Shown here: positions 1,327-28,902 of the stretch, piece by piece
How positions within the stretch are numbered: position 1 is the stretch's first letter
Layout of the letters: each line of letters begins with the position of its first letter
Assembly: GCA_900316715.1 (NCBI GenBank)
Contig: ONEC01000038.1
Span: 1-37,227 of the forward strand
Reading direction: 5' to 3'
Source of the DNA: an uncultured Eubacteriales bacterium
GTDB taxonomy: Bacteria; Bacillota; Clostridia; Lachnospirales; Lachnospiraceae
Length of the DNA: 37,227 nucleotides
Program-made: the position numbers and the translations under genes
The notes under the pieces: model-generated
Seen by the model: the letters and a program-made list of their open reading frames with translations, nothing else
Told to the model about the DNA's origin: nothing
Database searches by the model: none

Positions 1327-1359
1327 GGATACAAGACGGATACAAGGGTGGTGTATAAC
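1327..1359 (+). promoter_or_regulatory. Promoter of the 1400 lipoprotein gene with paired regulator boxes
   Basis: GGATACAAG occurs twice, at 1327-1335 and 1338-1346, exactly 11 bases apart. TATAAC at 1354-1359 would be the -10 and begins 16 bases after the start of the second box; there is no consensus -35. The same box pair and spacing occur before 7061, before 15805 (minus strand) and before 16005. A binding site for the OmpR-type regulator encoded at 15152-15805 is inferred. Confidence 0.5.
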
Positions 1360-1399
1360 ATTATCATACAGCGCTGAATACTATAAAAGAAGGTGAAGT

Positions 1400-2830
1400 A
1401 TGAGAAGAAAGAAGATTTATACACGAAAACTTGTGCCTGTATGGGCGATATGCAGTATGCTGCTGTTGGGGGGATGCAGCAGTGATGATCTGGACCTTAT
1501 AACTGATTACGGAAATAATGATGTGACGGTTGCTCTGGCAGAGGGAACAGTTCAGGTTGATGATAGTTCTATGGATGGAGACAGTGATTCTGCGATTTTA
1601 GGCCATGACCTCTTTGGAAGCGGCAAAATTGAATGGAAAGATAACTTTATTACAGATGACAGATCAGTAAAGGTAGACATCGATGTTGACTTTAACAGGG
1701 TGGATGTAAAGAAGCTGCCGGTATATGAATATACGGCATTAAACAGCAGTACTATCCGCGAAGAAGAGATTGTAAAGAATCTTTTTGGCGATACAGCAGA
1801 AAAGCGTATGGAGGAAAAGCTTTCACTGGAAAGAGAGGACTCTTATAAACTTATACAGAGTCTTTCAGGGTTTCTAAATATTGTTAATGAAAGAGAGATA
1901 GCAACGGATTTCTTTAACCCGGAACTTCCATGCTGGATAGAAAAAGACAGATACTATATCCATACCTATGAAGGCATATATAGAAATGTAAGCTGTCAGC
2001 TTATTATTGGATATAACTATGATACCGGCACGGCATACATTTCAATGTATCCGAAGAATCCGGGCAGTATGATAGGACATCCGGAATATGAGAATGTTGA
2101 GGTGTCAAATCTTAAACAGGAATTTCAGGGAATGACTATGATGGAAAAACCTGAGAATGACAGTAAAAAAGCCATGGAGAATCAATGCCGCATGTCTAAA
2201 GAAGAACGAATAGAGACAGTTCAGGCATTTATGAAAGATATGCTTATTATGGATACCAATAAAGATATGCTGAGCGCTTCCGATGTTGGATATATAGGAG
2301 AGGAAACTGCCGGAGCTGAACAGAACGAACTTGAGTTTTATGAGAAGAGATTTGATATAACTAATCCCGATGATCCTAAGGCATTGGAAGTGACAGAGAA
2401 GAATGGCTATTATATAAGCATTCTTAACAGCTTTGGAGGCATCAACAGCTACGCGGAGGCCTGGAATAGTTATAATCAAGGTGGCTTCTATGTTAACGAT
2501 GATGGGGTTATGGGCTTTAATCTCATAATCAACGAATGCCTGGGCGAAAAACTGAATGATAATACACCTGTTCTCGGTTTTGAGGATTTAAAGGAGTGTT
2601 TTCAGAAAGAACTGTCTGCGGATATATATGAGGATATCGTTAAGAGAGATGTGGTTTACATCAAGGATATGGAGATATTATACAGACGCTGTCCGGGAGA
2701 AAATGCAAATCAGGGAACAATGGTTCCGGTTCTGCATATGAGTGCCGTTGAGGGTGCTATAAATATACTGGATGTATATATGAGCATGATCGACGGAACT
2801 ATTATAGAAATAAGGTACTGCGATAACTGA
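1400..2830 (+). CDS. Lipoprotein of the DYG family, divergent member
   Basis: The 476-residue product has a type II signal peptide with lipobox LLGGC near residue 26, so it should be lipid-anchored on the outer membrane face. It shares a chain of motifs with the four lipoproteins at 7061-13132. These are TDYG shortly after the lipid cysteine, VKNLFGDT, a YEGIY...YPKNPGSMIGHPE block, CRMSKEE, GGFYVNDDGVMGF, and a C-terminal MSMIDGTII in place of LNAIDGS. It lacks the ELVFS...SSVRDGY block seen in the others, so it is the most divergent member. AGAAGGTG precedes the ATG. I cannot assign a biochemical function. The gene stands alone, and its promoter carries the boxes shared with the two-component and export operons. 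Confidence 0.8.
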   Translation: MRRKKIYTRKLVPVWAICSMLLLGGCSSDDLDLITDYGNNDVTVALAEGTVQVDDSSMDGDSDSAILGHDLFGSGKIEWKDNFITDDRSVKVDIDVDFNRVDVKKLPVYEYTALNSSTIREEEIVKNLFGDTAEKRMEEKLSLEREDSYKLIQSLSGFLNIVNEREIATDFFNPELPCWIEKDRYYIHTYEGIYRNVSCQLIIGYNYDTGTAYISMYPKNPGSMIGHPEYENVEVSNLKQEFQGMTMMEKPENDSKKAMENQCRMSKEERIETVQAFMKDMLIMDTNKDMLSASDVGYIGEETAGAEQNELEFYEKRFDITNPDDPKALEVTEKNGYYISILNSFGGINSYAEAWNSYNQGGFYVNDDGVMGFNLIINECLGEKLNDNTPVLGFEDLKECFQKELSADIYEDIVKRDVVYIKDMEILYRRCPGENANQGTMVPVLHMSAVEGAINILDVYMSMIDGTIIEIRYCDN

Positions 2831-2842
2831 TGTGATTATGCC

Positions 2843-2891
2843 CACTTGTGCGAACCAAAGCTTTGGAACTCACTTTTCACTTGTGCGAACC
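2843..2891. repeat. Direct repeat with central palindrome before the acetyltransferase gene
   Basis: CACTTGTGCGAACC occurs at 2843-2856 and again at 2878-2891, a period of 35 bases. Between them is a perfect 12-base palindrome, CCAAAGCTTTGG (2855-2866). The block lies in the 118-base gap before the serine acetyltransferase gene. It may be an operator pair or a remnant of an extragenic repeat; no clear promoter hexamers were found next to it. Confidence 0.6.
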
Positions 2892-2948
2892 CAAGTTTAA
2901 TAGTAGAATTAAGGCTATCTTTTGGTTTGCATTTGAAATGGAGGCACT

Positions 2949-3899
2949 ATGGAAAAGATATCTGAGAATATTGCGGCAATTGCAGATGCCATAACAAGTG
3001 ATTATGATAAGGGTCGTCCTATAGATAAGATGGACATGTTCAGTCAGCCTGACAGCAAAGCTATAGTTACGCTGATTGAAAAGCTCCTTAGAATAGTTTT
3101 TCCTGGATACTATGTTGACAGGGATCATAAGATATACAACATTAAGACTACTATAGCTGCGGTTACAGAAGATGTGGCATATAATCTTAACAAGCAGATA
3201 GCACTGGCTCTGAGATATGATGAGAAATATGCAAATGCACATCAGGAGACCATAGCTGATGCGGCTGAAGATATAACAGTCAGTTTTATGAATCAGATTC
3301 CGAATGTCAGAGAGTATCTTGATACGGATATTGAAGCACTTTTTGAAGGTGATCCGGCAGCAGAGAGTAAGGAGTCCATCATCATATGTTATCCGGGACT
3401 TTATGCCATAGCAGTTCAGAGATTTGCTCATGTACTCTATCAGCTGAATGTTCCGATGATTCCTCGTATTATGACTGAGCATGCTCATGGAATTACAGGA
3501 ATAGACATCAACCCGGGTGCTACTATCGGAAAGTACTTTTTCATCGATCATGGAACAGGTATAGTTGTCGGAGAGACAACAGAGATAGGAGAGCATGTAA
3601 AGCTGTATCAGGGCGTTACCCTTGGTGCGCTTTCAACCCGTGCAGGCCGTGGCCTTATTGATAAGAAACGTCATCCGACCATTGAGGATAATGTAACTAT
3701 CTATTCAGGAGCATCTATCCTTGGAGGAGACACAGTAATAGGACATGATTCTGTTATCGGAGGTAACGTATTCCTTACCAAGAGTATTCCTGCAAATACC
3801 AAGGTAAATGTACAGAATCAGGAGCTCCGCTTCGATGGTGGTAAGATAACAGAAGTAAGCACCATGGAAGATGATAACGCATGGTTCTATGTCATTTAA
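2949..3899 (+). CDS. cysE: Serine O-acetyltransferase
   Basis: This enzyme transfers acetyl from acetyl-CoA to L-serine, the first step of cysteine synthesis. The 316-residue protein has a long helical N-terminal region and a left-handed beta-helix of hexapeptide repeats from about residue 180. Residues aligned to the E. coli CysE active site are present: Asp186 in DINPGA, Asp200-His201 in IDHGTGIVVGET, and His242 in KRHPTIED. The usual DIHP motif reads DINP here, at a position not known to be catalytic. The N-terminal extension resembles EpsC-type bacterial enzymes. GGAGG sits just before the ATG. It is followed after 29 bases by the zinc-motif protein, with no terminator between, so the two are probably cotranscribed. 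Confidence 0.9.
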   Translation: MEKISENIAAIADAITSDYDKGRPIDKMDMFSQPDSKAIVTLIEKLLRIVFPGYYVDRDHKIYNIKTTIAAVTEDVAYNLNKQIALALRYDEKYANAHQETIADAAEDITVSFMNQIPNVREYLDTDIEALFEGDPAAESKESIIICYPGLYAIAVQRFAHVLYQLNVPMIPRIMTEHAHGITGIDINPGATIGKYFFIDHGTGIVVGETTEIGEHVKLYQGVTLGALSTRAGRGLIDKKRHPTIEDNVTIYSGASILGGDTVIGHDSVIGGNVFLTKSIPANTKVNVQNQELRFDGGKITEVSTMEDDNAWFYVI

Positions 3900-3928
3900 T
3901 GATGCAGCGAAGAGAGAAAGGATAAAAA

Positions 3929-4657
3929 ATGGCTGAACAGTTATATACAATACCTGTTAACGATGCATTTGGAACAGACTGCGAATGCCCTCTGTGCCTT
4001 ATGTGGAAGGACCTGGAGAAGAGCGCAATAGAGTTTACCATGGGACCGAGTTACATGGAGGATGACAACAGAGAGGTTACAGATAAGCTGGGCTTCTGTG
4101 CAAGACACATGGAGATAATGTACAGGAATAAGAACAAGCTGGGACTTGCTCTTATGCTTAAGACTCATACAGATAAGACTATCAGAGAGATGAAGGCTCT
4201 GGCTGCTGGTGAGAAGCCGAAGGCTGCAGGATTCTTCTCAAAGAAGACGGACACACCGCCTGTGATAGAGTATATTAACAGACTGGAATCAACATGCTTT
4301 GTATGCGGAAGAATACAGCCGGTCTTTGACAGATATATAGATACAATCTTCCATATGTGGAAGAAGGATAAGGACTTTGCTGAGAAGGTGAAGAACTGTA
4401 AGGGCTTTTGTACAAAGCATTATGGTATTCTCTATGAGGCAGGAGCAACAAAGCTTAATCAGGCTCAGTATGATGAGTTCCTGACAGTGCTTAATAAAGT
4501 ATATTTCGATAACATGGACCGACTCAACGCAGATATGTCCTGGTTTATTGATAAGCATGACTACCGCAATAAGACAGCTGATTGGGGGACATCCCGTGAC
4601 AGCCTGCAGAGAGCTCTTATAAAGGTCGGAAGTACGATAATTGAAGAAGATTCTTAA
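3929..4657 (+). CDS. Double zinc-motif protein, DUF6062-like
   Basis: The 242-residue soluble protein is built of two repeats, each with a C-x2-C pair followed about 35 residues later by C-x2-H. These are Cys20/Cys23 with Cys57/His60, and Cys123/Cys126 with Cys161/His164. The second elements read GFCARHM and GFCTKHYG. The pattern suggests two bound metal ions, probably zinc. It resembles the uncharacterised DUF6062 proteins of clostridia, recalled from memory rather than searched. It has no signal peptide and no membrane segment. It lies 29 bases downstream of the serine acetyltransferase gene and is closed by a strong terminator, so a link to sulfur or thiol metabolism is possible but unproven. 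Confidence 0.75.
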   Translation: MAEQLYTIPVNDAFGTDCECPLCLMWKDLEKSAIEFTMGPSYMEDDNREVTDKLGFCARHMEIMYRNKNKLGLALMLKTHTDKTIREMKALAAGEKPKAAGFFSKKTDTPPVIEYINRLESTCFVCGRIQPVFDRYIDTIFHMWKKDKDFAEKVKNCKGFCTKHYGILYEAGATKLNQAQYDEFLTVLNKVYFDNMDRLNADMSWFIDKHDYRNKTADWGTSRDSLQRALIKVGSTIIEEDS

Positions 4658-4688
4658 TGTGATATCAGGCAATTTGAGTAAATCTAAT

Positions 4689-4733
4689 AACAAGATATTA
4701 ATGGTTAGCCACCGTTAATATCTTGTTTTATTT
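4689..4733 (+). terminator. Intrinsic terminator of the cysE operon
   Basis: AACAAGATATTAATGG (4689-4704) pairs with CCGTTAATATCTTGTT (4712-4727) through 16 base pairs with one wobble and a seven-base loop. The 3' arm runs into TTTTATTT. It lies 31 bases after the stop codon at 4657. Confidence 0.9.
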
Positions 4734-4754
4734 ATGAAAGTTTTTTGTTATAAT
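4726..4754 (+). promoter_or_regulatory. Promoter of the HD-GYP gene
   Basis: TATAAT at 4749-4754 is a perfect -10. The best -35 at 17-base spacing is TTTTAT (4726-4731), a weak match that overlaps the T-tract of the preceding terminator. Confidence 0.5.
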
Positions 4755-4808
4755 CTGAATAGGGTTTGAACAAATTGTTTGGGGTTTTTCTTGATCAGGG
4801 GGACTTGC

Positions 4809-6902
4809 ATGGGAATGGGCAGTGAATCTGAAAAGAGAAGAAAGATACACATCTTCACAGTATGTCTTATCGGTATCGTTCTTAATATGATCGGTTCTGA
4901 GATTGTTATACTATTAAAGCTTCCAATCTATCTTGATACCGTGGGTACGCTTATTGTCTCTGTAATGAGCGGTTACCTTCCGGGCATCATCGTCGGTCTT
5001 ACAACCAATATTCTTAAGACCATTCAGGATACAACATCAATCTATTATGCATTTATAAATGTTCTCGTAGCGGTTATAGCTTCGCATTTTGCTATGAGAG
5101 GTAAAGTTAAGAAACCTCTTGGTGCGATTCTTATGACTGTTATTATTGCGCTTGTTGGAGGACTTCACGAAGGTCTTCTTACCTGGGTAAGAGGCGAATA
5201 CACTTCTGATATGTCTGTAGTAAAGACCATTTTTGGCTTTATCGTAAATGATTTTATAGATAAGGCGGTATCAGTTGTTATTCTTGAACTGATTCTTATA
5301 TTCCTTCCGATGAAACTACAGGAGATGCTGAAGATAGAAGGATGGCAGCAGACACCACTGTCCTCGGAAGAAATAAAGGCGGCAAAGAGAGCTAATAATC
5401 GTATAGTATCACTTAGAACAAAGATATTGGGACTGCTTATTACTGCCTGCGTAACTATAGGCATAGTAGCAATGGTTATAAGTGTTATTCTATATAAACA
5501 GTACACAATAGATCAACATAAAATTCTGGCAGAAGGAGTTGCGAGTCTGGTTGCTGAACGAATAGATGGAAATAAGGTTGAGGAATATCTTGAAAAGGGA
5601 GAAGCTGCTTCGGATTATAAAGAGATTGAAAGCCTTCTTTATCAGATCAGAAACAGTTCTCATGATATTAATTATGTATATGTATACAAGATTATGGAAG
5701 ATGGCTGTCATGTAGTATTTGATCTCGATACGGACGAGCTTCAGGGAGAAGAGCCGGGAACTATAGTACCTTTTGATGCATCATTTACTGAGATAATTCC
5801 TGATCTTCTTGCAGGTAAGAGTATTGATCCAATAATCACAGATGATACATATGGATGGCTGATAACAGCTTATAAGCCTGTATATGATAGGAATGGTGTA
5901 TGTCAGTGCTATGCGGCTGTAGATATATCTATGGATGTTATAAAGAATAATGAAGTTGCCTTTTTAGTAAAACTCCTGTCACTGTTTTTAGGATTCTTTA
6001 TTCTGGTAATAGCCATGGGTCTCTGGGTATCGGAATATAATATAGTTCTTCCTGTTAATACGATGGCTATTAGCGCCAGCGCTTTTGCATATGATAGTGA
6101 AGAGTCTCTGGAAGATAATGTGGCGCAGATCAAACGTCTCAATATCCATACAGGTGATGAGATAGAGAACATGTATCAAGCTTTCTCAAAGACAACTGAG
6201 AACAGTGTTAATTACATGAATGACCTGCAGAACAAGACAGAGATGATATCATATATGCAGGATGCACTTATTATGGTTCTGGCCGATATGGTAGAAAGCC
6301 GTGATGAGAATACGGGTGATCATGTCAGAAAAACTGCAGCTTATACAAGAATCATTATGGATAAGCTTCGGGAGATGGATATATATACGGATCAGCTTAC
6401 CGATCAGTTTATATTTGATGTAGAACGTTCTGCACCACTACATGATATAGGCAAGATATCAATATCAGATACGATTCTTAATAAGCCTGGAAAACTTACG
6501 GATGAAGAGTTTGAGATAATGAAAACTCATACTATTGCGGGAGCGGCGGTAATAGATCAGACCATTGAGAAGCTTCCGGAATCAGGTTATCTGCTGGAGG
6601 CAAAGAATATAGCACTTTACCATCATGAGAAGTGGAATGGCAGAGGTTATCCGGAAGGCCTCTCGGGAGAAGATATACCTCTTTCTGCAAGGATCATGGC
6701 TGTAGCTGATGTATTTGATGCACTTGTATCAGAACGATGCTACAAGAAAGCATTCTCCTTTGATGAGGCAATGGATATAATAAAGAAGGATGCAGGATCG
6801 CATTTCGATCCAAATGTTGCTGAAGCCTTCCTTCAGTCGAGAGAAAGGGTAAGTGAAGTGATGGAACGCATCACAACAGAGATACCTAATAAAAAGAAAT
6901 AA
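4809..6902 (+). CDS. Membrane HD-GYP cyclic-di-GMP phosphodiesterase with S-component-like sensor
   Basis: The product should hydrolyse cyclic di-GMP in response to a signal sensed at the membrane. Residues about 15-165 form a hydrophobic multi-helix block with LPIYLDTVGTLIV and GYLPGIIVGLTTN, resembling ECF transporter S components. A helix near 205-230, an extracellular sensor region of about 150 residues, another helix near 390-410 and a linker follow. The C-terminal HD-GYP domain has His545-Asp546 in HDIGK, His605-His606 in HHEKW and Gly613-Tyr-Pro in GRGYP, so the catalytic set looks complete. I chose ATG 4809, which has AGGGGGA five bases upstream, over a TTG at 4779. The gene is monocistronic between two terminators. 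The ligand of the membrane sensor is unknown. Confidence 0.85.
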   Translation: MGMGSESEKRRKIHIFTVCLIGIVLNMIGSEIVILLKLPIYLDTVGTLIVSVMSGYLPGIIVGLTTNILKTIQDTTSIYYAFINVLVAVIASHFAMRGKVKKPLGAILMTVIIALVGGLHEGLLTWVRGEYTSDMSVVKTIFGFIVNDFIDKAVSVVILELILIFLPMKLQEMLKIEGWQQTPLSSEEIKAAKRANNRIVSLRTKILGLLITACVTIGIVAMVISVILYKQYTIDQHKILAEGVASLVAERIDGNKVEEYLEKGEAASDYKEIESLLYQIRNSSHDINYVYVYKIMEDGCHVVFDLDTDELQGEEPGTIVPFDASFTEIIPDLLAGKSIDPIITDDTYGWLITAYKPVYDRNGVCQCYAAVDISMDVIKNNEVAFLVKLLSLFLGFFILVIAMGLWVSEYNIVLPVNTMAISASAFAYDSEESLEDNVAQIKRLNIHTGDEIENMYQAFSKTTENSVNYMNDLQNKTEMISYMQDALIMVLADMVESRDENTGDHVRKTAAYTRIIMDKLREMDIYTDQLTDQFIFDVERSAPLHDIGKISISDTILNKPGKLTDEEFEIMKTHTIAGAAVIDQTIEKLPESGYLLEAKNIALYHHEKWNGRGYPEGLSGEDIPLSARIMAVADVFDALVSERCYKKAFSFDEAMDIIKKDAGSHFDPNVAEAFLQSRERVSEVMERITTEIPNKKK

Positions 6903-6912
6903 CAGTACTTTG

Positions 6913-6945
6913 AGGAGCGGTTCAGAAGAAACTGCTCCTTTTTTT
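6913..6945 (+). terminator. Intrinsic terminator after the HD-GYP gene
   Basis: AGGAGCGGTT (6913-6922) pairs with AACTGCTCCT (6930-6939) with one wobble, followed by seven Ts (6939-6945). Confidence 0.92.
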
Positions 6946-6970
6946 GCCTTAATAAAAACTTAATAATCGA

Positions 6971-7003
6971 TTATGCTTTTTTGATACATTTGTTTTATAT
7001 AGT
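6971..7003 (+). promoter_or_regulatory. Promoter of the lipoprotein operon with paired regulator boxes
   Basis: TTATGCTTTT at 6971 and TGATACATTT at 6982 are two box-like sequences 11 bases apart. TATAGT at 6998-7003 would be the -10, 16 bases after the start of the second box. No normal -35 exists at 17-base spacing, which fits activation by a bound regulator. The arrangement matches those at 1327 and at 15852-15964. The upstream box is the weakest of the set. Confidence 0.45.
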
Positions 7004-7060
7004 ATGCGTAAATAGGGGAATAGCGAATGATACAGATATCTAAATGGAGGATGATGTATT

Positions 7061-8530
7061 ATGTTTCGCACAAAAAAATTAACAAAAATTGCTCTGGCTG
7101 CAGCCATGATGATGAGTTTTGGAGGCTGTGGTAAGAGTAATCCTGAAACTATTGAGGATTATGGATCTTCTTCAGGAGGAACCGTAGCAGCTGTCGAAGA
7201 AGGCACAGATGAGATGGTGGAAGGCACCAGTGTTGAAATAGATCAGGATATGATCGATAACGCGGGAGAGTGTAAGGATGATTTCGAAGTGGGTTCGAAG
7301 AAGGTCTACAGAAGTATTTCGGACTTTGGGATATCAATGGTGACTCTCCCTAGTATAAGAGCTGAGAAAGTTACGCTTGATAATCTGGATGCTGAAGGAT
7401 ATGCTAAAAAGCTTTTTGGAGATTCGGCGAATCAGCTTACTGAAAGACCAAGACCGACAGATAACTACAGAACCTGGGTTGATAATGAACCGGGTAACGA
7501 TCTGCATTTTTCGGAGGAAGAATACTGGGAGGAGAAAGAATCCCGGGAAGATATATGGTACGCATATGAAGGTAAGTATCAGGATAATGATTATTATCTT
7601 CTTGTTACCTATGAGTCAGAAACAGGAACAGCAGGCCTCCAGATGTTTCCCAAGAATGCGGGAGATGTGATAGGTGAATCAAATCTGGCTTACGTGAACA
7701 AATATGACCCGGCGATGTTCAAAACTCCGAGCATCGCAGAGGGTGGAATATATTATTTTCAGAATGTGGGTTATATTCAGGAAAATGGTGAGATGGTCCT
7801 GAAGGGAGTAGATTTTGGAGAGGCAGAGGATATAGCTACTAAAATGATGGATTCTCCAAACAGATGTACTATGTCTGATGCACAGCTGGAGAATCGTACA
7901 AGAGATTTCTTTGAGGGAACCCTTGGGATAAATATAAGTGAGTATCCGATAAGATATCAAAACAATTCCGGTGTCATTCGTATGGATTATTTCAACTATG
8001 ACAATGGTTGGCCTGAAGATGAGACGGAAGCAGAAAAGATAGAACTTGTTTTTTCACCTGAGAATAATTTTCCGTTTATTAATGTTGATTCATCTGTAAG
8101 AGATGGATACTCTGTTGGAATATCCGCGGATCTTGGTGGATTTGTTGATCCGAGGAATCTGGATTCAAGTGCTGAAATGGGATATCTCAATATTGCAGAA
8201 GAAGGTATTGTGGGCTTTTCGTATAAGTGGAAATATAACATTAAGGAGAGATTATCCGAAAGTACAACTCTTCTGGAATTTAATACGCTGATGGAATGTA
8301 TGAAGGAGGCTCTGCAGAACAGCCAGACATTTAATGATCTTTCAACTAACAAGATGAATTTTGAAAACGATATGGTACTTTCCTTCGCGGCGGTTGAATC
8401 ACCTGATGATCCGCATGAGGTTACGTTTGTTCCTGCGGTTACAATTTCCGGATGGGATAACATGAGAACAAGCTATAGTATAACGCTGAATGCTATAGAC
8501 GGAACCGTGATTTCCGAAGGGGAAGAGTAA
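7061..8530 (+). CDS. DYG-family lipoprotein, first of four tandem copies
   Basis: The 489-residue product has a short signal peptide ending in lipobox SFGGC (Cys23), then IEDYG and a flexible acidic Gly/Ser linker. The body carries the family motifs KKLFGDS, YEGKY...YYLLVTYES, MFPKNAGDVIGES, SPNRCTMSD, ELVFSPENNFPFI, SSVRDGY, EEGIVGFSY and a C-terminal LNAIDGT. It is probably lipid-anchored on the cell surface, and no enzymatic motif is visible. It is most similar to the next gene, pointing to a duplication. GGAGG near 7046 precedes the ATG. The gene leads an operon of four copies with gaps of 30 to 40 bases. The family is one I cannot name. Confidence 0.85.
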   Translation: MFRTKKLTKIALAAAMMMSFGGCGKSNPETIEDYGSSSGGTVAAVEEGTDEMVEGTSVEIDQDMIDNAGECKDDFEVGSKKVYRSISDFGISMVTLPSIRAEKVTLDNLDAEGYAKKLFGDSANQLTERPRPTDNYRTWVDNEPGNDLHFSEEEYWEEKESREDIWYAYEGKYQDNDYYLLVTYESETGTAGLQMFPKNAGDVIGESNLAYVNKYDPAMFKTPSIAEGGIYYFQNVGYIQENGEMVLKGVDFGEAEDIATKMMDSPNRCTMSDAQLENRTRDFFEGTLGINISEYPIRYQNNSGVIRMDYFNYDNGWPEDETEAEKIELVFSPENNFPFINVDSSVRDGYSVGISADLGGFVDPRNLDSSAEMGYLNIAEEGIVGFSYKWKYNIKERLSESTTLLEFNTLMECMKEALQNSQTFNDLSTNKMNFENDMVLSFAAVESPDDPHEVTFVPAVTISGWDNMRTSYSITLNAIDGTVISEGEE

Positions 8531-8569
8531 TTTAGTGAAGGATAAGTATTAATTGGAGGATATATTAAC

Positions 8570-10072
8570 ATGAGACGCTTTAAGCAAATTACAGGAATTG
8601 TACTTGTTGCGATGATGGCACTTTCAGTGGCAGGATGTGGAAAGCAGACTGAAACGGTTGAAGATTATGGATCAACTGCAGGAGGAAGTGTGGCTTCAGG
8701 AGAAGATGCTGAGAAAGATGAATTAGAAGAGATATTAGGTGAATATGAGACAGATAGTCAGGGCATAATACTCGGAGAATGTAAAGACGAATTTCAGGCC
8801 GGAACAACCAAAGTAATGAGAGATATAAAAGAGCATGGGGAGTGCCATATGGATGTTCCGATAATTAAAGCGGAAAGAACAACTCCTCAGAATCTTGATG
8901 CTGAAGGCTATGCAAAGAAGCTCTTTGGAGATACGGCAAGACAGCTTTCATACAAACCAAGAAATCCGGATAACTTAAGAGACTGGGATGTGGAACTAGG
9001 GACAGAATTTGAGTTTTCTGAAGAAGATTATTGGGATGAGAAGGATGCCAAAGAGGATACCTGGTTTGCCTACGAGGGCAAATATAATGAAAATGAATAT
9101 TATCTTCTGGTCACCTATGAATCAGAATCAGGTATTGCAGGACTTGAGATGTTTCCTAAGAATGCCGGAGATATTATAGGTGAGGGAAGACTATCTTATG
9201 TGACTCAATACGACCCTGCTTACTTTGAGATTCCTGATGTATACTCGCCAGGAGCGCAGATTGTATTTCCGGAACACCATGGATATATGCAGGAAGATGG
9301 AGAGATTCTTCATATGGATAAGGAAACAGGTCCGGAGTTTGATATAAAAACCAATATGAAGGATAGCCCTAATAGATGCACTTTTACTGATGAACAGCTG
9401 GTAAATCACGCTAAAGACTTTTTTGAAGGAACATTGGGGATAAATATCAGTGAATATGCGATGTCATCTCGTTGCAGCAACAGATTTTATGAGCTTTATA
9501 CGAATATAGAGCTAAGTGATGCGGAAGCAGAAGAAGATGATGGAAATACAGAAGAAGTAAAAAAAGCTGATAGAGTTGAACTTGTATTTTCAGAGCGTAA
9601 TAGTTTTCCGGATATAGATTATACCTCATCCGTAAGAGATGGATATAAAGTCAGTGTTTTAACTTTTATCAATGGATTAATAGTACCGATGAGTTATACG
9701 GATTTCAGAAATGAATTTGGATATGTAAATATCACAGATAGTGGAATTGTCGGATTTAAATTCAGGTGGAGATATCTTGTTAAAGAACGCTTATCCGATG
9801 AGTCTGTGCTTATGAGCTTTGAAAATATTATGCAATGCATGGAAAAGGCACTGATAGACAGCGAGGTACTTGCAAATATGACAATGCCAAATATACAGTT
9901 TGATTATATGTCAATAAATTATAAGGAGGTTGAATCACCGGATGATCCGGATGAAATAACCCTTGTTCCGGCATTATCATTTGATGGAAGCGTCTATGGT
10001 AATCCGGTATATGAGATTACACTTAATGCCATTGACGGAAGCGTAATAGAAGAAAGAGAGGTAAGTTATTAG
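8570..10072 (+). CDS. DYG-family lipoprotein, second tandem copy
   Basis: The 500-residue lipoprotein has lipobox LSVAGC (Cys23) and VEDYG seven residues later. It follows the first copy closely: AEGYAKKLFGDT, a YEGKYNENEYYLLVTYESE segment, EMFPKNAGDIIGEG, SPNRCTFTD, FFEGTLGINISEY, SSVRDGYKV and LNAIDGS. It carries an extra acidic insertion of about 15 residues (SDAEAEEDDGNTEE) before the ELVFS block. TGGAGGA lies before the ATG, 39 bases after the previous stop. The shared blocks with the first copy make these two a recent duplicate pair within the operon. Confidence 0.85.
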   Translation: MRRFKQITGIVLVAMMALSVAGCGKQTETVEDYGSTAGGSVASGEDAEKDELEEILGEYETDSQGIILGECKDEFQAGTTKVMRDIKEHGECHMDVPIIKAERTTPQNLDAEGYAKKLFGDTARQLSYKPRNPDNLRDWDVELGTEFEFSEEDYWDEKDAKEDTWFAYEGKYNENEYYLLVTYESESGIAGLEMFPKNAGDIIGEGRLSYVTQYDPAYFEIPDVYSPGAQIVFPEHHGYMQEDGEILHMDKETGPEFDIKTNMKDSPNRCTFTDEQLVNHAKDFFEGTLGINISEYAMSSRCSNRFYELYTNIELSDAEAEEDDGNTEEVKKADRVELVFSERNSFPDIDYTSSVRDGYKVSVLTFINGLIVPMSYTDFRNEFGYVNITDSGIVGFKFRWRYLVKERLSDESVLMSFENIMQCMEKALIDSEVLANMTMPNIQFDYMSINYKEVESPDDPDEITLVPALSFDGSVYGNPVYEITLNAIDGSVIEEREVSY

Positions 10073-10106
10073 GAAGTTTAACATAGGGTTTTATAGGGGA
10101 ATAGTG

Positions 10107-11558
10107 ATGAGGAGAATGAAGTATTTTATGCTGGCAGCGGCTATGGCACTGTCCATGGCCGGATGTGGCAGTAAGGGAGAGAAGGCGACCATTGAGGAAT
10201 ATGGAGGCCTTCAGGAAGGGGAGGAATCATCCCGGCAGGGTTCCGGAGTTGTATCAGGTGATCCAGATGAACTTAGGACGGCTCTTGCTAAGAAGCTGGG
10301 AGTTGATAAGCTTCAGTGTAATGACAGCTTTGATGTGAACGGAATGCCGGTAAATATTCGGCTGGATAAGTCGCTTCCGGAGGTTGGGAGACTTCCAAGT
10401 TATAGGATTTATGACATGAATGAGGCGCGTATTGACGAGGAAAAGATAGTAAAGAATATATTTGGTGATACGGGAAGAGTTCTCACCGATGAAGAGATAC
10501 GGGACAGACAGCTTCAGGATATTGAAGGAGAAGATTATGAAACTTCTTATGATGATTCAGATTTGGGCTTTTCTCATATGTATACAGGAAAATATATGGG
10601 ATCAGATTATACCCTCACTATATCCGAATGGGAGAGTTCCATTGATGTGATACTGGAACCGGATAATCCCGGAGAGATTATCGGAGAGGGAGATCTTAAA
10701 TATATGAACGTATATTGTCCATCGTTTTTTAATCTTGTAGATGGTGTATGGACTAAAGATGGAATGTATATTTCAAATGCGAATGGTAATATCGGATTTG
10801 ATGAGAATGGAGATCCAATCATAGTAACATCTGAAAATGTAAAAGATTATGATATCGCTGAGAATATGAAAGACAGGCCCAACAGATGTACTAAATCTGA
10901 TGATGAACTTCTGACAGAAACAGAGCATTTCCTGAACGAGATGCTGGGGGTTTATATGCCTTCAGGTACAATAAATGTTTATGGAGATATTTATTTTGAC
11001 TCTAATATAGATTATGAAAAATCTAAATTAGAGAAAGAGAATAACAAGGCTGAACTTGTGTTTAGTTCTACAAATAATTATCCTCTTATCAATTATGCTT
11101 CGTCAGTAAGAAATGGATATGAGGTAGCTATTCAGCCGTATATTGCAGGTATAGAACCATATCTGGGAAGAACGATAGACGGGCAGGTTGAATCCAATTC
11201 CGGGCATGTAGATATTACGGAAGAAGGTGTAATAGGATTTTTTTATTACTGGAGATATTACTTTGAGGAAGAACTGTCCAGTGACTGTGAACTGATGAAA
11301 TTCAGTAACATAATAGAATGCTTCAAGGAAGGCCTAAAAGAAAATGTACTGCTCGGTGATTATGGATTATCGGATCTTTATTTCAACGATATATATCTTA
11401 CCTATGTAGTAGTTTCTTCGCCGGATGACTCAGGAGAAAAATCTTATGTTCCGGCCTGGTCTTTTGTAGGATATAACAATGGAACACCAAAGATCATAGT
11501 ATATATAAATGCACTGGACGGAAGCTTTGTAAGTGCAGAGGAACCTAAGGTGTATTAA
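10107..11558 (+). CDS. DYG-family lipoprotein, third tandem copy
   Basis: The product is a 483-residue lipoprotein with lipobox LSMAGC and IEEYG nine residues after it. I chose ATG 10107 over the GTG at 10104 because GGGGA at 10096-10100 then has six-base spacing. It forms a second pair with the fourth copy. Shared features include GVDKLQCNDSF, PSYRIYDM, VKNIFGDT, LEPDNPGEIIGEG, YDIAENMKDRPNRCTKSDD, ELVFSSTNNYPLI, SSVRNGYEVA and INALDGS. It has a LGVYMPSGTINVYG stretch not present in the first pair. Function unknown; the anchoring and repeat layout suggest a surface or envelope role like its neighbours. Confidence 0.85.
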   Translation: MRRMKYFMLAAAMALSMAGCGSKGEKATIEEYGGLQEGEESSRQGSGVVSGDPDELRTALAKKLGVDKLQCNDSFDVNGMPVNIRLDKSLPEVGRLPSYRIYDMNEARIDEEKIVKNIFGDTGRVLTDEEIRDRQLQDIEGEDYETSYDDSDLGFSHMYTGKYMGSDYTLTISEWESSIDVILEPDNPGEIIGEGDLKYMNVYCPSFFNLVDGVWTKDGMYISNANGNIGFDENGDPIIVTSENVKDYDIAENMKDRPNRCTKSDDELLTETEHFLNEMLGVYMPSGTINVYGDIYFDSNIDYEKSKLEKENNKAELVFSSTNNYPLINYASSVRNGYEVAIQPYIAGIEPYLGRTIDGQVESNSGHVDITEEGVIGFFYYWRYYFEEELSSDCELMKFSNIIECFKEGLKENVLLGDYGLSDLYFNDIYLTYVVVSSPDDSGEKSYVPAWSFVGYNNGTPKIIVYINALDGSFVSAEEPKVY

Positions 11559-11593
11559 ATTTAGAAAATATAGGGATTGAAGGAAAAATAGTG

Positions 11594-13132
11594 ATGAAAA
11601 AAGTGAAATGTGTAATGCTGGCGGCAGCTATGGCATTATCCATGGCCGGTTGTGGAGGCAAAGGAGAAACAGGGACAATTGAAGAATACGGGAATCTTCA
11701 GGAAGGAGTAACTGAGGAGGGGAGCGAGTCACTTTCTAAAGAAGGTACCATAGCAGTAACGACTGAATCCGGTGAAGAAAAGTCAGATGCGGCAAAAAGA
11801 CTGGGAGTTGATAAGATTGAGTGTAATGACAGTTTTGAAGTGAGCGGAAAAATGGTAAGCATACACGTTAATTCTCCGCTTCCGGAGTTTGGCGCATTAC
11901 CAACATATAAAGTCTATAAAATGACTCCGGACCGATTGGACGTGGCTAGTATTATCAAAGCTGTTTTTCAGGATGGAAGCAGAGAACTTAGTGAGGAAGA
12001 AGCGCTTCGTGAAGAACTTAAGGAATTCTCTGATGAGGAGGTAGAGGGCCTGCTTAATGGAAAGCCTATTGAGGTATATGAAGGAGATAATCTTGTTTAT
12101 AGAATAGAACCTATTGAGGAGGGAGAAAATATAGGTGGAGAAGGCCATACATATAAAGGCAAGTATCATGGTTTAGATTACGTCCTCTCAACTTTTGAGA
12201 GTCAGGATGGAGTGTCTATAGTTTTTTATCCTGACAATCCAGGAGAGTTTATAGGAGAACCTGCACTTAAGTATATGAATACCTATTATCCTTCCAAGTT
12301 TGATGCTACTGATGGCTACTGGACGAAGGATGGATATTATGTTCCAAATGAGCACTCTTACCTTGGAGTAGATGAGAATGGTGAAGAAGAATATCTTACA
12401 TCTGAAAATGCCATGGAATATGACATTGCTGAAAATATGAAAGACAGACCAAACAGATGTGGGAAGAGTGACGATACACTTAAAGAAGAGGCAGAATATT
12501 TCCTAAGCAGTACACTGGGAATCACCATGCCGTCCGGGACAATTGATCTCTATGGAAACAATGAAGTTTATAATGATATTGATTATGAAAAGTCAAATAT
12601 CGAACAGGAGTTTCACAAGTCTGAACTTGTTTTTTCTGAAGACAATACATTTCCTAAAGTAAACTTTAATACAGCAGTAAGGGATGGGTATGAGATTGGA
12701 ATAATGCCTAAGATAGCCGGCCTTGAGCCTTATGCAGGAAGTGATGCAACAGAATATGCGCCGGAGGCAAATTACGGCTTCATAAATATTACTGATGAAG
12801 GTGTTGTCAGCTTTAGCTATACCTGGGTATGGGATTTTGAAGAAGAGTTATCTCCTGACAGTGAACTCCTCGCATTCAATAATGTTATAGAGTCTTTCAA
12901 AGAAGGTGTTCAGGAGAATGTTATGATAACTGACTTTAGTTCAGAAAGCATATCCTTTAATGATGCATATCTTACATATGTGGTTATTTCATCACCTGAT
13001 GGTTCAGGAGAGATGACTTATGTTCCGGCCTGGAACTTTGTGGGATATGTAAATGGAGGAGAAAAGAAGATATTCGTATATATAAATGCAATTGATGGCA
13101 GCTTTATCAGTGCTGAAAAGCCTGAATACTAA
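11594..13132 (+). CDS. DYG-family lipoprotein, fourth tandem copy
   Basis: The longest member at 512 residues has lipobox LSMAGC and IEEYG after it. ATG 11594 is preferred over GTG 11591; AAGGA lies about ten bases upstream. Besides the pair-specific blocks shared with the third copy (GVDKIECNDSF, YDIAENMKDRPNRCGKSDD, LGITMPSGTIDLYG), it has an insertion around residues 140-180, rich in Glu and Gly, before the YKGKYHG segment. The stop codon ends one base before the stop of the opposite-strand gene at 13134, so any terminator for this operon must lie inside that gene. Function unknown. Confidence 0.85.
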   Translation: MKKVKCVMLAAAMALSMAGCGGKGETGTIEEYGNLQEGVTEEGSESLSKEGTIAVTTESGEEKSDAAKRLGVDKIECNDSFEVSGKMVSIHVNSPLPEFGALPTYKVYKMTPDRLDVASIIKAVFQDGSRELSEEEALREELKEFSDEEVEGLLNGKPIEVYEGDNLVYRIEPIEEGENIGGEGHTYKGKYHGLDYVLSTFESQDGVSIVFYPDNPGEFIGEPALKYMNTYYPSKFDATDGYWTKDGYYVPNEHSYLGVDENGEEEYLTSENAMEYDIAENMKDRPNRCGKSDDTLKEEAEYFLSSTLGITMPSGTIDLYGNNEVYNDIDYEKSNIEQEFHKSELVFSEDNTFPKVNFNTAVRDGYEIGIMPKIAGLEPYAGSDATEYAPEANYGFINITDEGVVSFSYTWVWDFEEELSPDSELLAFNNVIESFKEGVQENVMITDFSSESISFNDAYLTYVVISSPDGSGEMTYVPAWNFVGYVNGGEKKIFVYINAIDGSFISAEKPEY

Positions 13133-13133
13133 T

Positions 13134-13673
13134 TTACTGCTGGTCAAAATCATAGTCAATAGCAGCAGGGTCGAGATGTGTTCCACCCTCTGTGATATAA
13201 AACTTTTTCTCATCTGTGCCGTCGTATTTTGTGAAGGTTACCCTCCAGAATATGGCGGCATAAGTTTTGAATGTGGTATCAACGGCCTTATATGGAGTAG
13301 CAGACCAGGAATACCACTTCTGATAATATGAGTTGATATTATAGTCATAGGTTGTTGCTATCTCATATTCTGAAAAATTACATTCGCTTGGCTGGGCAGG
13401 AGAAACGATACTGTCCCAGGTTCCATATATAAGAGACAGACACTGGCCTTCCGTAAGCTGACGGGAGGCATTTTTTACTATGGCTTCAGACGGACCGGAA
13501 TAGTAATCGGTAGGCACCGGAGTGACTATTCCTTCTCTGGCATATGCCTGGGAGTTCAGTATACGTCCGGGCACAATAAGAGCACCTGCAATCATGGAAC
13601 CTGTAATGGCCAGAAGCAGGATGGATATGATAATGCTCTTAACTGATATTTTTCTTTTACCTGAAGCTTTCAT
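13134..13673 (-). CDS. Small signal-anchored protein of the two-component operon
   Basis: This 179-residue protein has a basic N-terminus and one hydrophobic helix (about residues 13-33), followed by an extracytoplasmic domain rich in Tyr, Ser and Thr. There is no lipobox, so it is either membrane-anchored or secreted after cleavage near SQAYA. The domain includes ASRQLTEGQCLSLIYGTWDS and a WSATPYKAVDTTFKTYAAIF segment; I recognise no family. It starts two bases after the histidine kinase stop and uses a GAGGAA site within the kinase 3' end, so translation is coupled to the kinase. Such a third gene often acts as an accessory sensor or target of the system, but that is inference. Confidence 0.75.
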   Translation of the reverse strand: MKASGKRKISVKSIIISILLLAITGSMIAGALIVPGRILNSQAYAREGIVTPVPTDYYSGPSEAIVKNASRQLTEGQCLSLIYGTWDSIVSPAQPSECNFSEYEIATTYDYNINSYYQKWYSWSATPYKAVDTTFKTYAAIFWRVTFTKYDGTDEKKFYITEGGTHLDPAAIDYDFDQQ

Positions 13674-13675
13674 TG

Positions 13676-15115
13676 TTATTCCTCGATTTTAAGCTTTACT
13701 GTGATCCTGGTACCTTCACCTGGTTTACTTGAGAGGTCAAGGTCAGCATCATGACGCTTTAAGATTATGGATACAAGAGACATTCCCAGACCGGCACCGC
13801 CGGCAGCTCTTGTTCTTGATTTATCTACCATAAAGAATTCATCAAAGATCTTCTTCTGATTTTCTTCTGAGATTCCGATACCATGATCCTGTACAGTGAA
13901 CTCATACATGCCGTCAACTGCTTTACCGGTAAACTCAATCGTATCCCCTGATTTGGATGCCTTACGCGCATTGTCCAGCAGGTTGATAAATACAGTCTTC
14001 AGGAGCTCAGGGTCTCCCATAAGGATTGCAGAATCAAAATCGGTTATAAGCTTTATGCCTGACTTCTCCATAAGAGGAGTGATACTTGTTATGATACTGT
14101 TGGCAAGTACATTTGATGTAATCTGCCTTATATCTATTGGATGATCCTTGAGGTAAAGCAGATCGAAAAGCTTCATGGACATTGCCTCAAGACGCTTGCC
14201 TTCTGAGAAGATGTAGTTAAGTGCATCCTGCTGTTCTTCTCTTGAAAGATCAACAGATCTCAGAGTATCCGCATATCCGATGATACTTGTCATAGGTGTT
14301 TTTATCTCGTGAGTAAAGTCGGCAACGAACTGTTCTCTTCTGTGGATCATATCATTCAGTTCTTCCACACGGGATTCAACGGAATCAGCCATGGAATTAA
14401 ATCTGTTAGACAGATGTCCGACTTCATCTCCTGTTTTGATATTTGATCTTACGGAGTAATCACCTTCTGCAAAGGAGTCTGTGGTATCGCTCAGTTTCTC
14501 AAGAGGCCTTGTAAGAAGGCGGCTGAATATATAGAGCAGAAGAGCTGCAGCAGAGATGATAATGACAGTGATTCTTCTGTAGTCTGTAATACTTCTGTCG
14601 AGAAGGGATTTAAGTTCGGTAATATCTCTTCTGGTAATGATATTGAGATTTTTTTCACTTATAGAACTGAAGGAAGTGACATACAGGTAAATGCGGTCAT
14701 CTTCCTCTTTGATCAGATAATTCTTCCTTGTTTCATCTGAGAATTTGAAGAGATCTTCAGGAATGGCAGCCTCCGGATCAGCGACAGTGCGGCTGCCGGC
14801 AAATGCTCCCTCACTTACATAGATATATTTATCAGCGTAACGGATAAGAAGAGCTTCCTCACCGGAAACCATTCCGCTATATACCTGATCGCATATTGAA
14901 GGCAGCATGGTGTTGATGGCCTGCTTACGGTTTATGACATCGAGAAGTGAATACTCGATGGAAGACTGTACCAGATTGTTTTCGGTAACAGCAGACTTTA
15001 TCTCGGAATTGATAGCAAGGTTATAGCTTCTCTCCATAAGAAGATAGCCCACTATTCCCAGAGTGAGCGAGAGAAGAATAATATTGATGATTATAACCTT
15101 GTATCTGAATTTCAT
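13676..15115 (-). CDS. Membrane sensor histidine kinase
   Basis: The 479-residue kinase senses an envelope signal and phosphorylates the partner regulator. Domains in order are a first helix (about 7-29), an extracytoplasmic sensor of about 150 residues, a second helix (about 178-198), HAMP (RPLEKLSDTTDSFAEGDYSV), HisKA with His269 in THEIKTPMTSIIGYADTLR, and a C-terminal ATPase domain. The ATPase boxes are INLLDNARKAS (N), DHGIGI (G1), FDEFF (F) and GGAGLGMSL (G2). All catalytic motifs are intact. It lies 36 bases after the regulator gene. The divergent exporter and the nearby lipoproteins suggest a peptide antibiotic or envelope-stress signal, as in BceS- or CssS-like systems, but no ligand can be read from the sequence. 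Confidence 0.92.
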   Translation of the reverse strand: MKFRYKVIIINIILLSLTLGIVGYLLMERSYNLAINSEIKSAVTENNLVQSSIEYSLLDVINRKQAINTMLPSICDQVYSGMVSGEEALLIRYADKYIYVSEGAFAGSRTVADPEAAIPEDLFKFSDETRKNYLIKEEDDRIYLYVTSFSSISEKNLNIITRRDITELKSLLDRSITDYRRITVIIISAAALLLYIFSRLLTRPLEKLSDTTDSFAEGDYSVRSNIKTGDEVGHLSNRFNSMADSVESRVEELNDMIHRREQFVADFTHEIKTPMTSIIGYADTLRSVDLSREEQQDALNYIFSEGKRLEAMSMKLFDLLYLKDHPIDIRQITSNVLANSIITSITPLMEKSGIKLITDFDSAILMGDPELLKTVFINLLDNARKASKSGDTIEFTGKAVDGMYEFTVQDHGIGISEENQKKIFDEFFMVDKSRTRAAGGAGLGMSLVSIILKRHDADLDLSSKPGEGTRITVKLKIEE

Positions 15116-15151
15116 AATTTAGTTCCAATGTGTATGTTATTGCGATGCATT

Positions 15152-15805
15152 TCAACCAATGAGTCTGTAGCCTGTGTTATATACAGATTTCAGATTCTCT
15201 TTAAGTCCAAGCTTACGGCGAAGTCTCTGAACATGAAGATCCAGAGTTCTTGTGTCACCCATCCAGTCTGTCTCCCAGATGCTTTCATAGAGTCTGTCGC
15301 GGTAAAGGGTAATGTTTATATTTCTGATAAACATTACAAGAAGATCGAACTCCTTTGGTGTCAGTACCACAGGCTGTCCGTCCAGGGTAACAGTTCTGTT
15401 ATCGATATCAGCTTCTATGTTCTTATAATGCAGTTTGGAATCAGCTTTGTTATATCGGCGCATAACGATATTGATTCGCGCCAGAAGCTCAACAATCTCA
15501 AATGGTTTTATAAGATAATCCTCTGCACCTGATGTGAGTCCGCGCATTCTGTCATCCAGTGATGCTTTTGCTGTAATAAATATAACCGGGATTCCCATAG
15601 GACGGATGTATTCCATAAGCTCATATCCGTTAATCTCCGGAAGCATGATGTCCAGGAGAATCAGATCAAATGTATGGTCTACCAATATATCAGCTGCTGA
15701 TTTGCCGTCATAAAGGGCGGTACAGTCATAACCGGCTTTCTTAAGATTCAGGCATATCAGATTGGATATTGGTCGTTCATCTTCAACTACGAGTACTTTA
15801 AGCAT
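15152..15805 (-). CDS. OmpR/PhoB-family response regulator
   Basis: The 217-residue regulator has a receiver domain (1-115) with acidic Glu8-Asp9, phosphorylation site Asp52 in LLDIMLPE, Thr78 and Lys100 in LIKPF. The C-terminal winged helix (about 125-217) has LTPKEFDLLVMFI and RTLDLHVQRLRRKLG and ends in YNTGYRLIG. OmpR-family proteins bind tandem direct repeats about 10-11 bases apart, exactly what lies upstream of this gene and of the divergent exporter. GGAGG is seven bases before the ATG at 15805. It leads a three-gene operon with the kinase and the small anchored protein and is probably autoregulated through the boxes at 15852-15888. Confidence 0.93.
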   Translation of the reverse strand: MLKVLVVEDERPISNLICLNLKKAGYDCTALYDGKSAADILVDHTFDLILLDIMLPEINGYELMEYIRPMGIPVIFITAKASLDDRMRGLTSGAEDYLIKPFEIVELLARINIVMRRYNKADSKLHYKNIEADIDNRTVTLDGQPVVLTPKEFDLLVMFIRNINITLYRDRLYESIWETDWMGDTRTLDLHVQRLRRKLGLKENLKSVYNTGYRLIG

Positions 15806-15851
15806 AGTTACGCCTCCACATAGAAAAATAAAGCTTTTTGCACTCTTATGA

Positions 15852-15888
15852 TTGTATCATAAAACGTAAATGCATCTCAATTGTATCT
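15852..15888 (-). promoter_or_regulatory. Autoregulatory promoter of the two-component operon
   Basis: On the minus strand AGATACAATTG begins at 15888 and AGATGCATTT at 15877, 11 bases apart. TATGAT (15861-15856) starts 16 bases after the second box and is the probable -10. A further TGATACAAT begins at 15859. No consensus -35 is present, as expected for a promoter driven by an OmpR-type regulator. Confidence 0.6.
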
Positions 15889-15920
15889 TGCTTAATATTT
15901 CTTCAGATATTTTTAAGAAA

Positions 15921-15964
15921 TGATGCATTTTGATACAATTTTGATGCAATTTGATGGCATACTA
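15921..15964 (+). promoter_or_regulatory. Exporter operon promoter with four tandem regulator boxes
   Basis: Four TGAT-led units start at 15921, 15931, 15942 and 15952: TGATGCATTT, TGATACAATT, TGATGCAATT and TGATGGCATA. Spacings of 10, 11 and 10 bases put them on one face of the helix. CATACT at 15959-15964 is the likely -10, 17 bases after the start of the third box. There is no -35 consensus, so the boxes probably replace it, as in PhoB-type activation. Confidence 0.65.
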
Positions 15965-19614: not shown

Positions 19615-19833
19615 GTGCTAAGATTTATTTTTACAAAAATTAGAAATAAATACAGGCTGTATATAGCGCTTATTGTCGGAGTCATATCGATGATAGCTGT
19701 CTGCAGTGTAATCATGCTTCTTAGAAGAGGTTCCATTGACAGACTTATACAGAGTGAATTTACTGATTATTATGACACTAAAGTGTTATTTCGGATCGGC
19801 GTCCACCGAGAAGGCAAGGTTGACAAGTCATAA
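19615..19833 (+). CDS. N-terminal fragment of the FtsX-type permease (frameshifted)
   Basis: The GTG at 19615, with GAGGGGAA about eight bases upstream, opens a 72-residue frame that carries a basic start and one membrane helix (about residues 16-38, YIALIVGVISMIAVCSVIML). The coding sense then appears to continue in the +1 frame: the overlapping frame is open from 19736 and reads as a plausible extracellular domain. The protein-like part here ends near DYYDTK (about 19780). The residues after it (VLFRIGVHREGKVDKS) look like out-of-frame translation. This piece supplies the first of ten helices expected of the permease. It is either a real mutation, a sequencing error or a recoding site. Confidence 0.65.
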   Translation: MLRFIFTKIRNKYRLYIALIVGVISMIAVCSVIMLLRRGSIDRLIQSEFTDYYDTKVLFRIGVHREGKVDKS

Positions 19834-23092: not shown

Positions 23093-23103
23093 GAGGACTT
23101 ATT

Positions 23104-28831: not shown

Positions 28832-28871
28832 ATTATAGGCAAATTGCGCCCTTTTTGCGGTTTCCTATAAT
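28832..28871 (+). other. 5' leader hairpin of rpoBC mRNA
   Basis: ATTATAGG (28832-28839) pairs with CCTATAAT (28864-28871); AAA with TTT and a few GU/GC pairs extend it, leaving a pyrimidine-rich loop. It would form about five bases from the expected transcript 5' end and 15 bases before the ribosome site. It may stabilise the mRNA or take part in control of RNA polymerase synthesis. Confidence 0.55.
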
Positions 28872-28902
28872 AGAAAAAATAATTCAAGGGGTGAATACGT
28901 CA

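Follow-up and report, generated by a model that had tools for sequence, protein, structure and literature searches.

A tandem GATRCA box at the promoters of a two-component system, an exporter and a lipoprotein family in a rumen Lachnospiraceae bacterium

In the genome of an uncultured rumen gut bacterium of the Lachnospiraceae, the promoters of a two-component system, of an exporter and of a family of lipoproteins share a paired box, GATRCA-N5-GATRCA, followed at a fixed distance by a -10 hexamer. The stretch of DNA that carries these promoters (hereafter the window; 37,227 nucleotides) is contig C98 of a 2.84-Mb genome in 195 contigs, and the closest record found is that of Lachnospiraceae bacterium UBA2864, in which the regulator protein is 99% identical. 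The presence of the shared box at four promoters of the window is confirmed. From comparative sequence analysis it is proposed, with a probability of roughly 85%, that the boxes are the operator of a clade of OmpR/PhoB-type response regulators, which would activate transcription by taking the place of the -35 element and thereby tie the exporter and the lipoproteins to the two-component system.

Throughout this work the first base of a unit is the G of GAT. On the forward strand, the lipoprotein gene that starts at 1400 is preceded by GATACA-N5-GATACA (1328-1344) and the -10 hexamer TATAAC (1354-1359), the site spanning 1328-1359; likewise, the run of four lipoprotein genes from 7061 is preceded by TATGCT-N5-GATACA and TATAGT (6998-7003), spanning 6972-7003. 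The response regulator gene, located on the reverse strand, has GATACA-N5-GATGCA from position 15887 and TATGAT at 15861-15856 (site 15856-15887), and is predicted to be autoregulated through this box. Facing the opposite way, the adaptor and exporter genes are preceded on the forward strand by GATACA-N5-GATGCA (15932-15948) and CATACT (15958-15963), and an additional GATGCA unit lies upstream at 15922-15927, the complete site spanning 15922-15963. The original prediction, made from the sequence of the window alone, had placed paired boxes at these same four promoters; the sequences were read directly, and a 32-bp matrix that covers GATRCA-N5-GATRCA plus the -10 and was trained outside this genome ranks the same four sites first to fourth among the approximately 74,000 positions of the two window strands, with scores of 32.6 (15932), 29.2 (15887), 23.8 (1328) and 16.5 (6972). 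The fifth position scores 7.5. At each of the four sites, the distance from the G of unit two to the first base of the -10 is precisely 15 bases, which agrees with the distance of 16 in the original prediction, counted there from one base earlier.

Spacing of the units and position of the -10 hexamer

Related loci were collected as 249 candidate stretches, 207 of them with a relative of the regulator, and the best 80 were analysed. In their intergenic DNA (0.10 Mb; near-identical loci were included in this count) two GATRCA units are found 54 times at a spacing of five bases, and not once at spacings of 0 to 4 or 6 to 11; wider spacings of 12, 13, 14, 16, 18, 23 and 24 bases occur 1, 3, 1, 4, 1, 1 and 1 times, respectively. 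In DNA called as coding there are 12 pairs at N5 and between 0 and 5 at each of the other spacings from 0 to 24, the single unit having a density per kb and strand of 0.73 in coding and 1.22 in intergenic DNA. When the 250-bp regions upstream of the related regulators were reduced from 80 to 72 by dereplication, 34 of the 72 contained the exact pair in one orientation or the other (24 in that of the regulator and 12 in the opposite one), and in 500 dinucleotide shuffles of these regions the count averaged 0.01 and never exceeded 1.

The matrix was trained on 51 dereplicated sites outside the window genome and the near-identical UBA2864 genome (loci L032 and L056), from which sites called as coding were excluded if they did not lie upstream of a regulator. 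When these 51 sites are aligned on the boxes alone, the -10 emerges at +15 from the second GATRCA, with 73% for its first T, 90% for the A and 80% for the last T; this is the best offset in 27 of the sites, and the mean -10 score is +2.4 there and -3.2 or lower at every other offset from 6 to 29. It follows directly from the sequence that the first box sits where a -35 element would be. No site has a TTGACA with at least four matches at spacers of 16 to 18, but this absence is not independent evidence because the fixed GATRCA letters cover most of the -35 place; being nearly forced by the letters that were picked, it was dropped as a separate argument. A further unit with five of the six letters lies 11 bp upstream in six of the 51 sites and 10 bp upstream in two. 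Arrays of at least three units at steps of 10 or 11 bp were seen in loci L045 (8113-8135, minus strand) and L100 (9882-9909), in the window at 15922 and at G035:C64, which suggests that some targets carry cooperative arrays.

Conservation and the genes marked by the box

The exact pair with TANNNT at +15 has 72 matches in 40 of the 61 genomes of the genus. The pattern read backwards has two, and moving TANNNT by 3 bp to +18 leaves seven matches in seven of the 61 genomes, some of them at the same places. Among 32 of the genus sites that were examined, mostly one locus per genome and some near-identical, 16 lie ahead of a family lipoprotein, four ahead of an adaptor and three ahead of a regulator, that is, 23 of the 32 are in front of three gene families; six precede something else or no called gene, and three are called coding, one of these being the lipoprotein promoter of contig C192 with a wrong open reading frame (ORF) start. 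The enrichment of the paired box with an adjacent -10 in intergenic DNA and its conservation in relatives, both expected from the original prediction, were thus borne out by the 54 intergenic pairs at N5, the -10 locked at +15, the 34 of 72 regulator upstream regions, the 72 genus matches versus seven for the shifted control, and the 23 of 32 sites before three families.

In the related loci, the same three families stand out when genes are scored by a leave-one-locus-out procedure, in which the matrix is rebuilt without the locus under test and related loci stay in the training set. Among genes whose upstream gap is 60 bp or longer, those preceded by a site scoring at least 18 are 27 of 51 for the regulator, 27 of 46 for the lipoprotein family and 10 of 16 for the adaptor, versus 4 of 410 other genes, 2 of 16 histidine kinase genes, none of nine third genes of the system and neither of two permease genes. 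With gaps below 60 bp the figures are 3 of 19 for the regulator, 2 of 22 for the lipoprotein, 2 of 45 for the adaptor and 2 of 383 for other genes, and none of 60 kinase, 31 third and 24 permease genes is marked.

Conservation of the full pattern is clade-bound. Across the order, four of the 16 matches found outside the own genome directly precede a regulator 47-55% identical to that of the window, the list behind this count carrying two sites of one genome twice. The exact pair also stands before the regulator in Butyricicoccus, Christensenella and Clostridium methylpentosum, and in one Thomasclavelia record out of two. All 49 strong lipoprotein matches (E below 1e-30) fall in loci L032 to L069, whose regulators are at least 65% identical. 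Autoregulation through the box would then be older than the genus, and the spread of the box to lipoproteins and exporters appears narrower because the strong lipoprotein matches are confined to loci with these close regulators.

Other sites and paralogous modules in the same genome

With up to two mismatches, the pattern has 63 matches in the own genome. Fifteen of these score at least 16, and a first-order random genome gives about one. Ten of the 15 strong sites are upstream of a lipoprotein-family, adaptor or regulator gene belonging to the clade, namely the four of the window, two that face each other on contig C192, three that precede unlinked lipoprotein genes on contigs C103, C42 and C127, and one that heads an operon on C132. 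Two further regulators of the same clade are thus found in box-marked modules: at C192 a paralogue 68% identical to the window regulator stands with two lipoproteins, and the C132 operon comprises an adaptor, a second adaptor, a permease, two lipoproteins, a regulator (58%), a kinase and a third gene. Homology of the C132 operon to the system of the window is confirmed by comparison of the adaptors (26% identity, E = 2e-29), the permeases (36% identity) and the third genes (34% over 148 residues, E = 9e-25); one of its two lipoproteins was compared and matches the family profile at E = 5e-18, and it was not listed in the profile search of the genome. No site scoring at least 8 lies immediately upstream of the C132 regulator, a gene that is inside the marked operon, nor in the stretch read at C35, where there is a weak match to the lipoprotein family. 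The box does not mark every lipoprotein paralogue.

Two other strong sites belong to the locus of a 46% identical regulator on C92, one of them in front of a 269-residue secreted protein of another kind. The two 46% regulator paralogues of this genome, at C92:39951 and C156:2892 (both on the minus strand; loci L238 and L247), have DNH and not DLH in the helix, and the pairs that precede their genes are TTTACA-N5-GATACA and TTTACA-N5-GTTACA, respectively. A helix-to-base code among the regulator paralogues is possible from these two cases, which are to be taken as a lead. On the minus strand at C126:45958 (locus L230), GTTACA-N5-GTTACA with the -10 TATAAT precedes an unrelated lipoprotein of 295 residues, and this pair is perhaps the operator of another regulator.

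Alternative explanations and proposed mechanism

Several observations weigh against the proposal that the boxes are the operator of the regulator clade. The first unit at 6972, TATGCT, differs from GATRCA at two letters, as the original prediction had cautioned in calling this unit weak. There is no order-wide enrichment, since 295 evenly drawn genomes gave 18 matches in 15 genomes versus 14 in 14 for the shifted pattern. In the related loci, 24 of the 51 regulator genes with an upstream gap have no site scoring 18; the fractions of marked genes are rough, the gene calls in these loci being simple ORF calls, and the leave-one-locus-out procedure drops one locus and not all its relatives. In the own genome, three of the 15 strong sites (C171, C126 and C149) are followed by unrelated genes; these sites could be chance occurrences or belong to another regulator. 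In the stretches read, the lipoprotein genes at C151 (profile E = 3.7e-60) and C133 have no site scoring at least 8, and the same is true of a 42% identical regulator at C133.

That the repeats arise by chance in GATRCA-rich DNA, or reflect common descent of the lipoprotein genes, is nevertheless extremely improbable. GATRCA is indeed common, and the bare pair, counted from rows over the 61 genomes, occurs 149 times at N5 versus 121 at N4, with a higher number at N6; in the own genome the figures are 7 at N5, 5 at N4 and 27 at N6, a spacing that puts both units in the same frame. These raw counts, with N5 barely above N4 and N6 higher, were discarded as evidence of enrichment, in keeping with the earlier caution that GATACA is common in coding DNA: they are hardly informative because GATRCA is frequent in reading frames, and the reversed pattern is an unfair control, since GATRCA read backwards includes a TAG whenever R is A. 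The signal is visible in intergenic DNA or when the -10 is included, and chance is contradicted by the intergenic spacing specificity, by the phase-locked -10, by the sharing of the site among unrelated families and by the shuffles. It is also quite unlikely that the box is the operator of a repressor, the phase of the -10 reflecting blocking of the promoter. The box does overlap the promoter, and repression could likewise give a fixed distance, but the place of the box at -35, with no room for a good TTGACA, means that these promoters probably need an activator, and the geometry matches that of regulators that replace the -35 element.

A smaller though appreciable weight is given to the alternative that the boxes serve mainly a paralogous regulator of the C192 or C132 type, or that the three paralogues are interchangeable and their targets form one merged multi-kinase regulon. 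The boxes may be shared because the paralogous regulators have similar helices and box-marked modules of their own; the GATACA-associated regulators that were compared, those of C192 and C132 among them, closely resemble one another in the recognition helix. Yet in the C98 and C192 loci the box is at the promoter of the regulator itself, which is the usual sign of a cognate pair, and the base after the second unit hints at a partial separation by regulator class, in a small sample of related members: it is T in 7 of 9 sites of loci with a 73-83% identical regulator and A in 19 of 23 sites of loci with a 60-72% identical one. In the own genome the letters at this place are TTT at 15887, 6972, C103 and C42, ATT at 15932 and AAG at 1328. 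Use of the operator is probably common to the three paralogues, at least to some extent. The original prediction of one regulon governed by the regulator at 15152 therefore needs to be divided: a tandem 11-bp operator of OmpR/PhoB type that links the system, the exporter and the lipoproteins is supported, and assignment to that single regulator is too narrow or unproven, as three paralogous regulators with similar helices carry the box.

For the operator of the regulator clade, the following mechanism is proposed. An extracellular signal would activate the kinase, which would phosphorylate the regulator; two regulator domains would then bind head to tail to GATRCA-N5-GATRCA, in the -35 place and with the second unit 15 bp before the -10, and the bound phosphorylated regulator would recruit RNA polymerase in a PhoB-like manner. 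We infer that the regulator encoded at 15152 is the binder and that binding activates. It would thereby induce its own operon (regulator, kinase and third protein), the divergent adaptor and ATP-binding cassette (ABC) exporter genes, the single lipoprotein gene at 1400 together with the run of four from 7061, and the same box elsewhere in the genome would control further lipoprotein paralogues and the second operon of exporter, lipoprotein and regulator genes. The lipoproteins would act outside the cell with the exporter and possibly feed back on the kinases; by analogy with YycH and YycI, the induced lipoproteins or the third protein could modulate the kinase. A broader version, which we regard as doubtful, is that GATRCA-N5-GATRCA is an undescribed operator that defines a multi-kinase envelope regulon in this rumen Lachnospiraceae genus, in which the three paralogous systems, all of them including an orphan third protein anchored in the membrane, would jointly induce YycI-like lipoproteins and MacB-like exporters, the lipoproteins being exchangeable extracellular feedback ligands of the kinases.

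The box would offer a testable cis-code for a two-component family present in many rumen and gut Lachnospiraceae records, whose regulon could be read from metagenomes, and it would tie an orphan lipoprotein family and an exporter to a regulator. The possible kinship of the induced lipoproteins with YycI hints at a feedback loop, where a kinase would govern a large set of copies of the type of modulator that belongs to it.

Proteins of the two-component system, lipoproteins and exporter

The presumed binder of the boxes is a response regulator of 217 residues encoded on the minus strand (15152-15805). Its receiver domain (Response_reg, 91.9 versus a Pfam cut-off of 30.2 bits) and its Trans_reg_C domain (72.8 versus 26.2 bits) place it in the OmpR/PhoB family, the helix region reads DTRTLDLHVQRLRRKLG, and its best solved sequence relatives are RegX3 and MtrA. 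Closer identities were rejected: the score is 180.9 bits for the PhoB equivalog, with a cut-off of 296.2, and 157.7 bits for that of YycF (WalR), with a cut-off of 340 and a half-site GATRCA instead of TGTWAH; all 25 listed NCBIfam models, of 95, are below cut-off, which leaves no identity as PhoB, WalR or VanR. The sensor histidine kinase (13676-15115, minus strand; 479 residues) has a HAMP-HisKA-HATPase_c architecture. The third gene of the system (13134-13673, minus strand), present in 40 of the 80 related loci, encodes an orphan family, and its model, with a predicted local distance difference test (pLDDT) value of 87.9, combines a single long helix at the N terminus, interpreted as a membrane anchor, with a small second domain. 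None of 35 family members matched Pfam, and the model gave no match to a PDB fold at E = 0.001 or better; nor did the third protein or the lipoproteins have a PDB relative by sequence at a useful E-value.

The five lipoprotein genes of the window are all on the forward strand. The one at 1400-2830 encodes 476 residues, and the four-gene run consists of 7061-8530 (489 residues), 8570-10072 (500), 10104-11558 (484) and 11591-13132 (513), the last with weak DUF6034 and PepSY matches below cut-off. Proteins of the family have a lipobox-like Cys, and most have an NA-DGS motif at the end. DUF6034 (PF19499) is matched at E = 0.01 or better by 27 of 45 members (best 1.1e-10); three of the window lipoproteins reach 18.1-25.5 bits, under the curated cut-off of 27, and the other two have no match. 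At the same threshold, two of the 45 members match PepSY and two match PF09648 (YycI; best 2.2e-4), a kinase modulator of Bacillus, and none of the five window proteins matches PF09648. Weak and scattered NCBIfam matches of single members were not used. The model of the 7061 protein (pLDDT 79.2) has its best Foldseek match in 5COZ (E = 1.1e-8, no other match having an E of 0.001 or less), followed by YycI 2O3O (E = 1.4e-3). Template modelling scores normalised to the query are as low as 0.25 for 5COZ and 0.14-0.20 for the listed YycI chains, so that the proteins have no more than a portion of the fold in common; in predicted fold, the lipoproteins weakly resemble YycI.

The exporter genes, also on the forward strand, begin with a lipoprotein adaptor with an ATG start (16005-17030) that is RND_mfp-like below cut-off, followed by a second, larger adaptor-like protein (16960-19611; 883 residues as the longest frame), whose GTG start overlaps the preceding gene, a FtsX/MacB-like permease of 883 residues (19736-22387) and two ABC ATPases (22391-23092 and 23104-24180, together 22391-24180). 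FtsX and ABC_tran are above cut-off and MacB_PCD is below; the adaptors reach 62.0 and 66.5 bits versus a cut-off of 94.9 bits for the membrane fusion protein (MFP) family.

Other features of the window were noted. An inverted repeat, AGTCCCTGAGA ... TCTCAGGGACT, lies at 1242-1315 between a kinase-like gene (395-1225) and the first box, and is probably the terminator of the upstream gene. A short direct repeat, CACTTGTGCGAACC, occurs in two copies at 2843-2891, between the genes at 1400 and 2949. Just past the exporter genes (24603-26739) there is a sigma-70-family gene, like those of extracytoplasmic function factors by its size and domains, and then a 528-residue protein without a Pfam match. 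Finally, two adjoining, very long frames of 1301 and 1307 residues occupy 28855-36696, the second being 65% identical to a protein of locus L109.

Comparison with known systems

In open-access literature searches aimed at the box and the proteins, no earlier description of the GATRCA-N5-GATRCA box was found, and GATACA together with a response regulator and a direct repeat was found only within a primer; likewise, no paper on DUF6034 or EUBREC_2869 was found there. As far as these searches show, the operator and the regulon are new, and the kind of promoter mechanism is already known.

The best fold match of the lipoprotein model, 5COZ, is the protein EUBREC_2869 of Eubacterium rectale, itself titled uncharacterized. 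Exporters of the MacAB and YknXYZ type combine an MFP-like adaptor, a FtsX/MacB-like permease and an ABC ATPase, as is seen here, but the exporter of the window has two adaptors and two ATPases, and its adaptors are under the family cut-off.

As regards the box, the nearest mechanistic parallel is PhoB. Pho box promoters have an 11-bp period and carry the box in lieu of a -35 element, with TGTCA as the half-site. The window box shares with them the head-to-tail direct repeats, the period and the -35 place. Head-to-tail binding of such repeats by an OmpR/PhoB-family domain is described for PhoB (PMC4415409). The system of the window differs in its half-site, in a regulator below the PhoB equivalog cut-off and in its targets, which are lipoproteins and an exporter and not phosphate genes. 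An 11-bp period is also shared with PhoP of Mycobacterium tuberculosis, for which 7-bp direct repeats with a 4-bp spacer are bound by a cooperative dimer (PMC4832192); its targets are different. Finally, the site of WalR/VicR (YycF), given as TGTWAH-N5-TGTWAH (PMC4168254), has the same hexamer-N5-hexamer arrangement of direct repeats. Two auxiliary proteins of the Wal system, YycH and YycI, are modulators of its kinase YycG (PMC3262814), and the box-marked lipoproteins are distantly like YycI in predicted fold. The system of the window departs from it in having another half-site and a regulator below the YycF cut-off, and in that the many YycI-like lipoproteins are themselves predicted targets.

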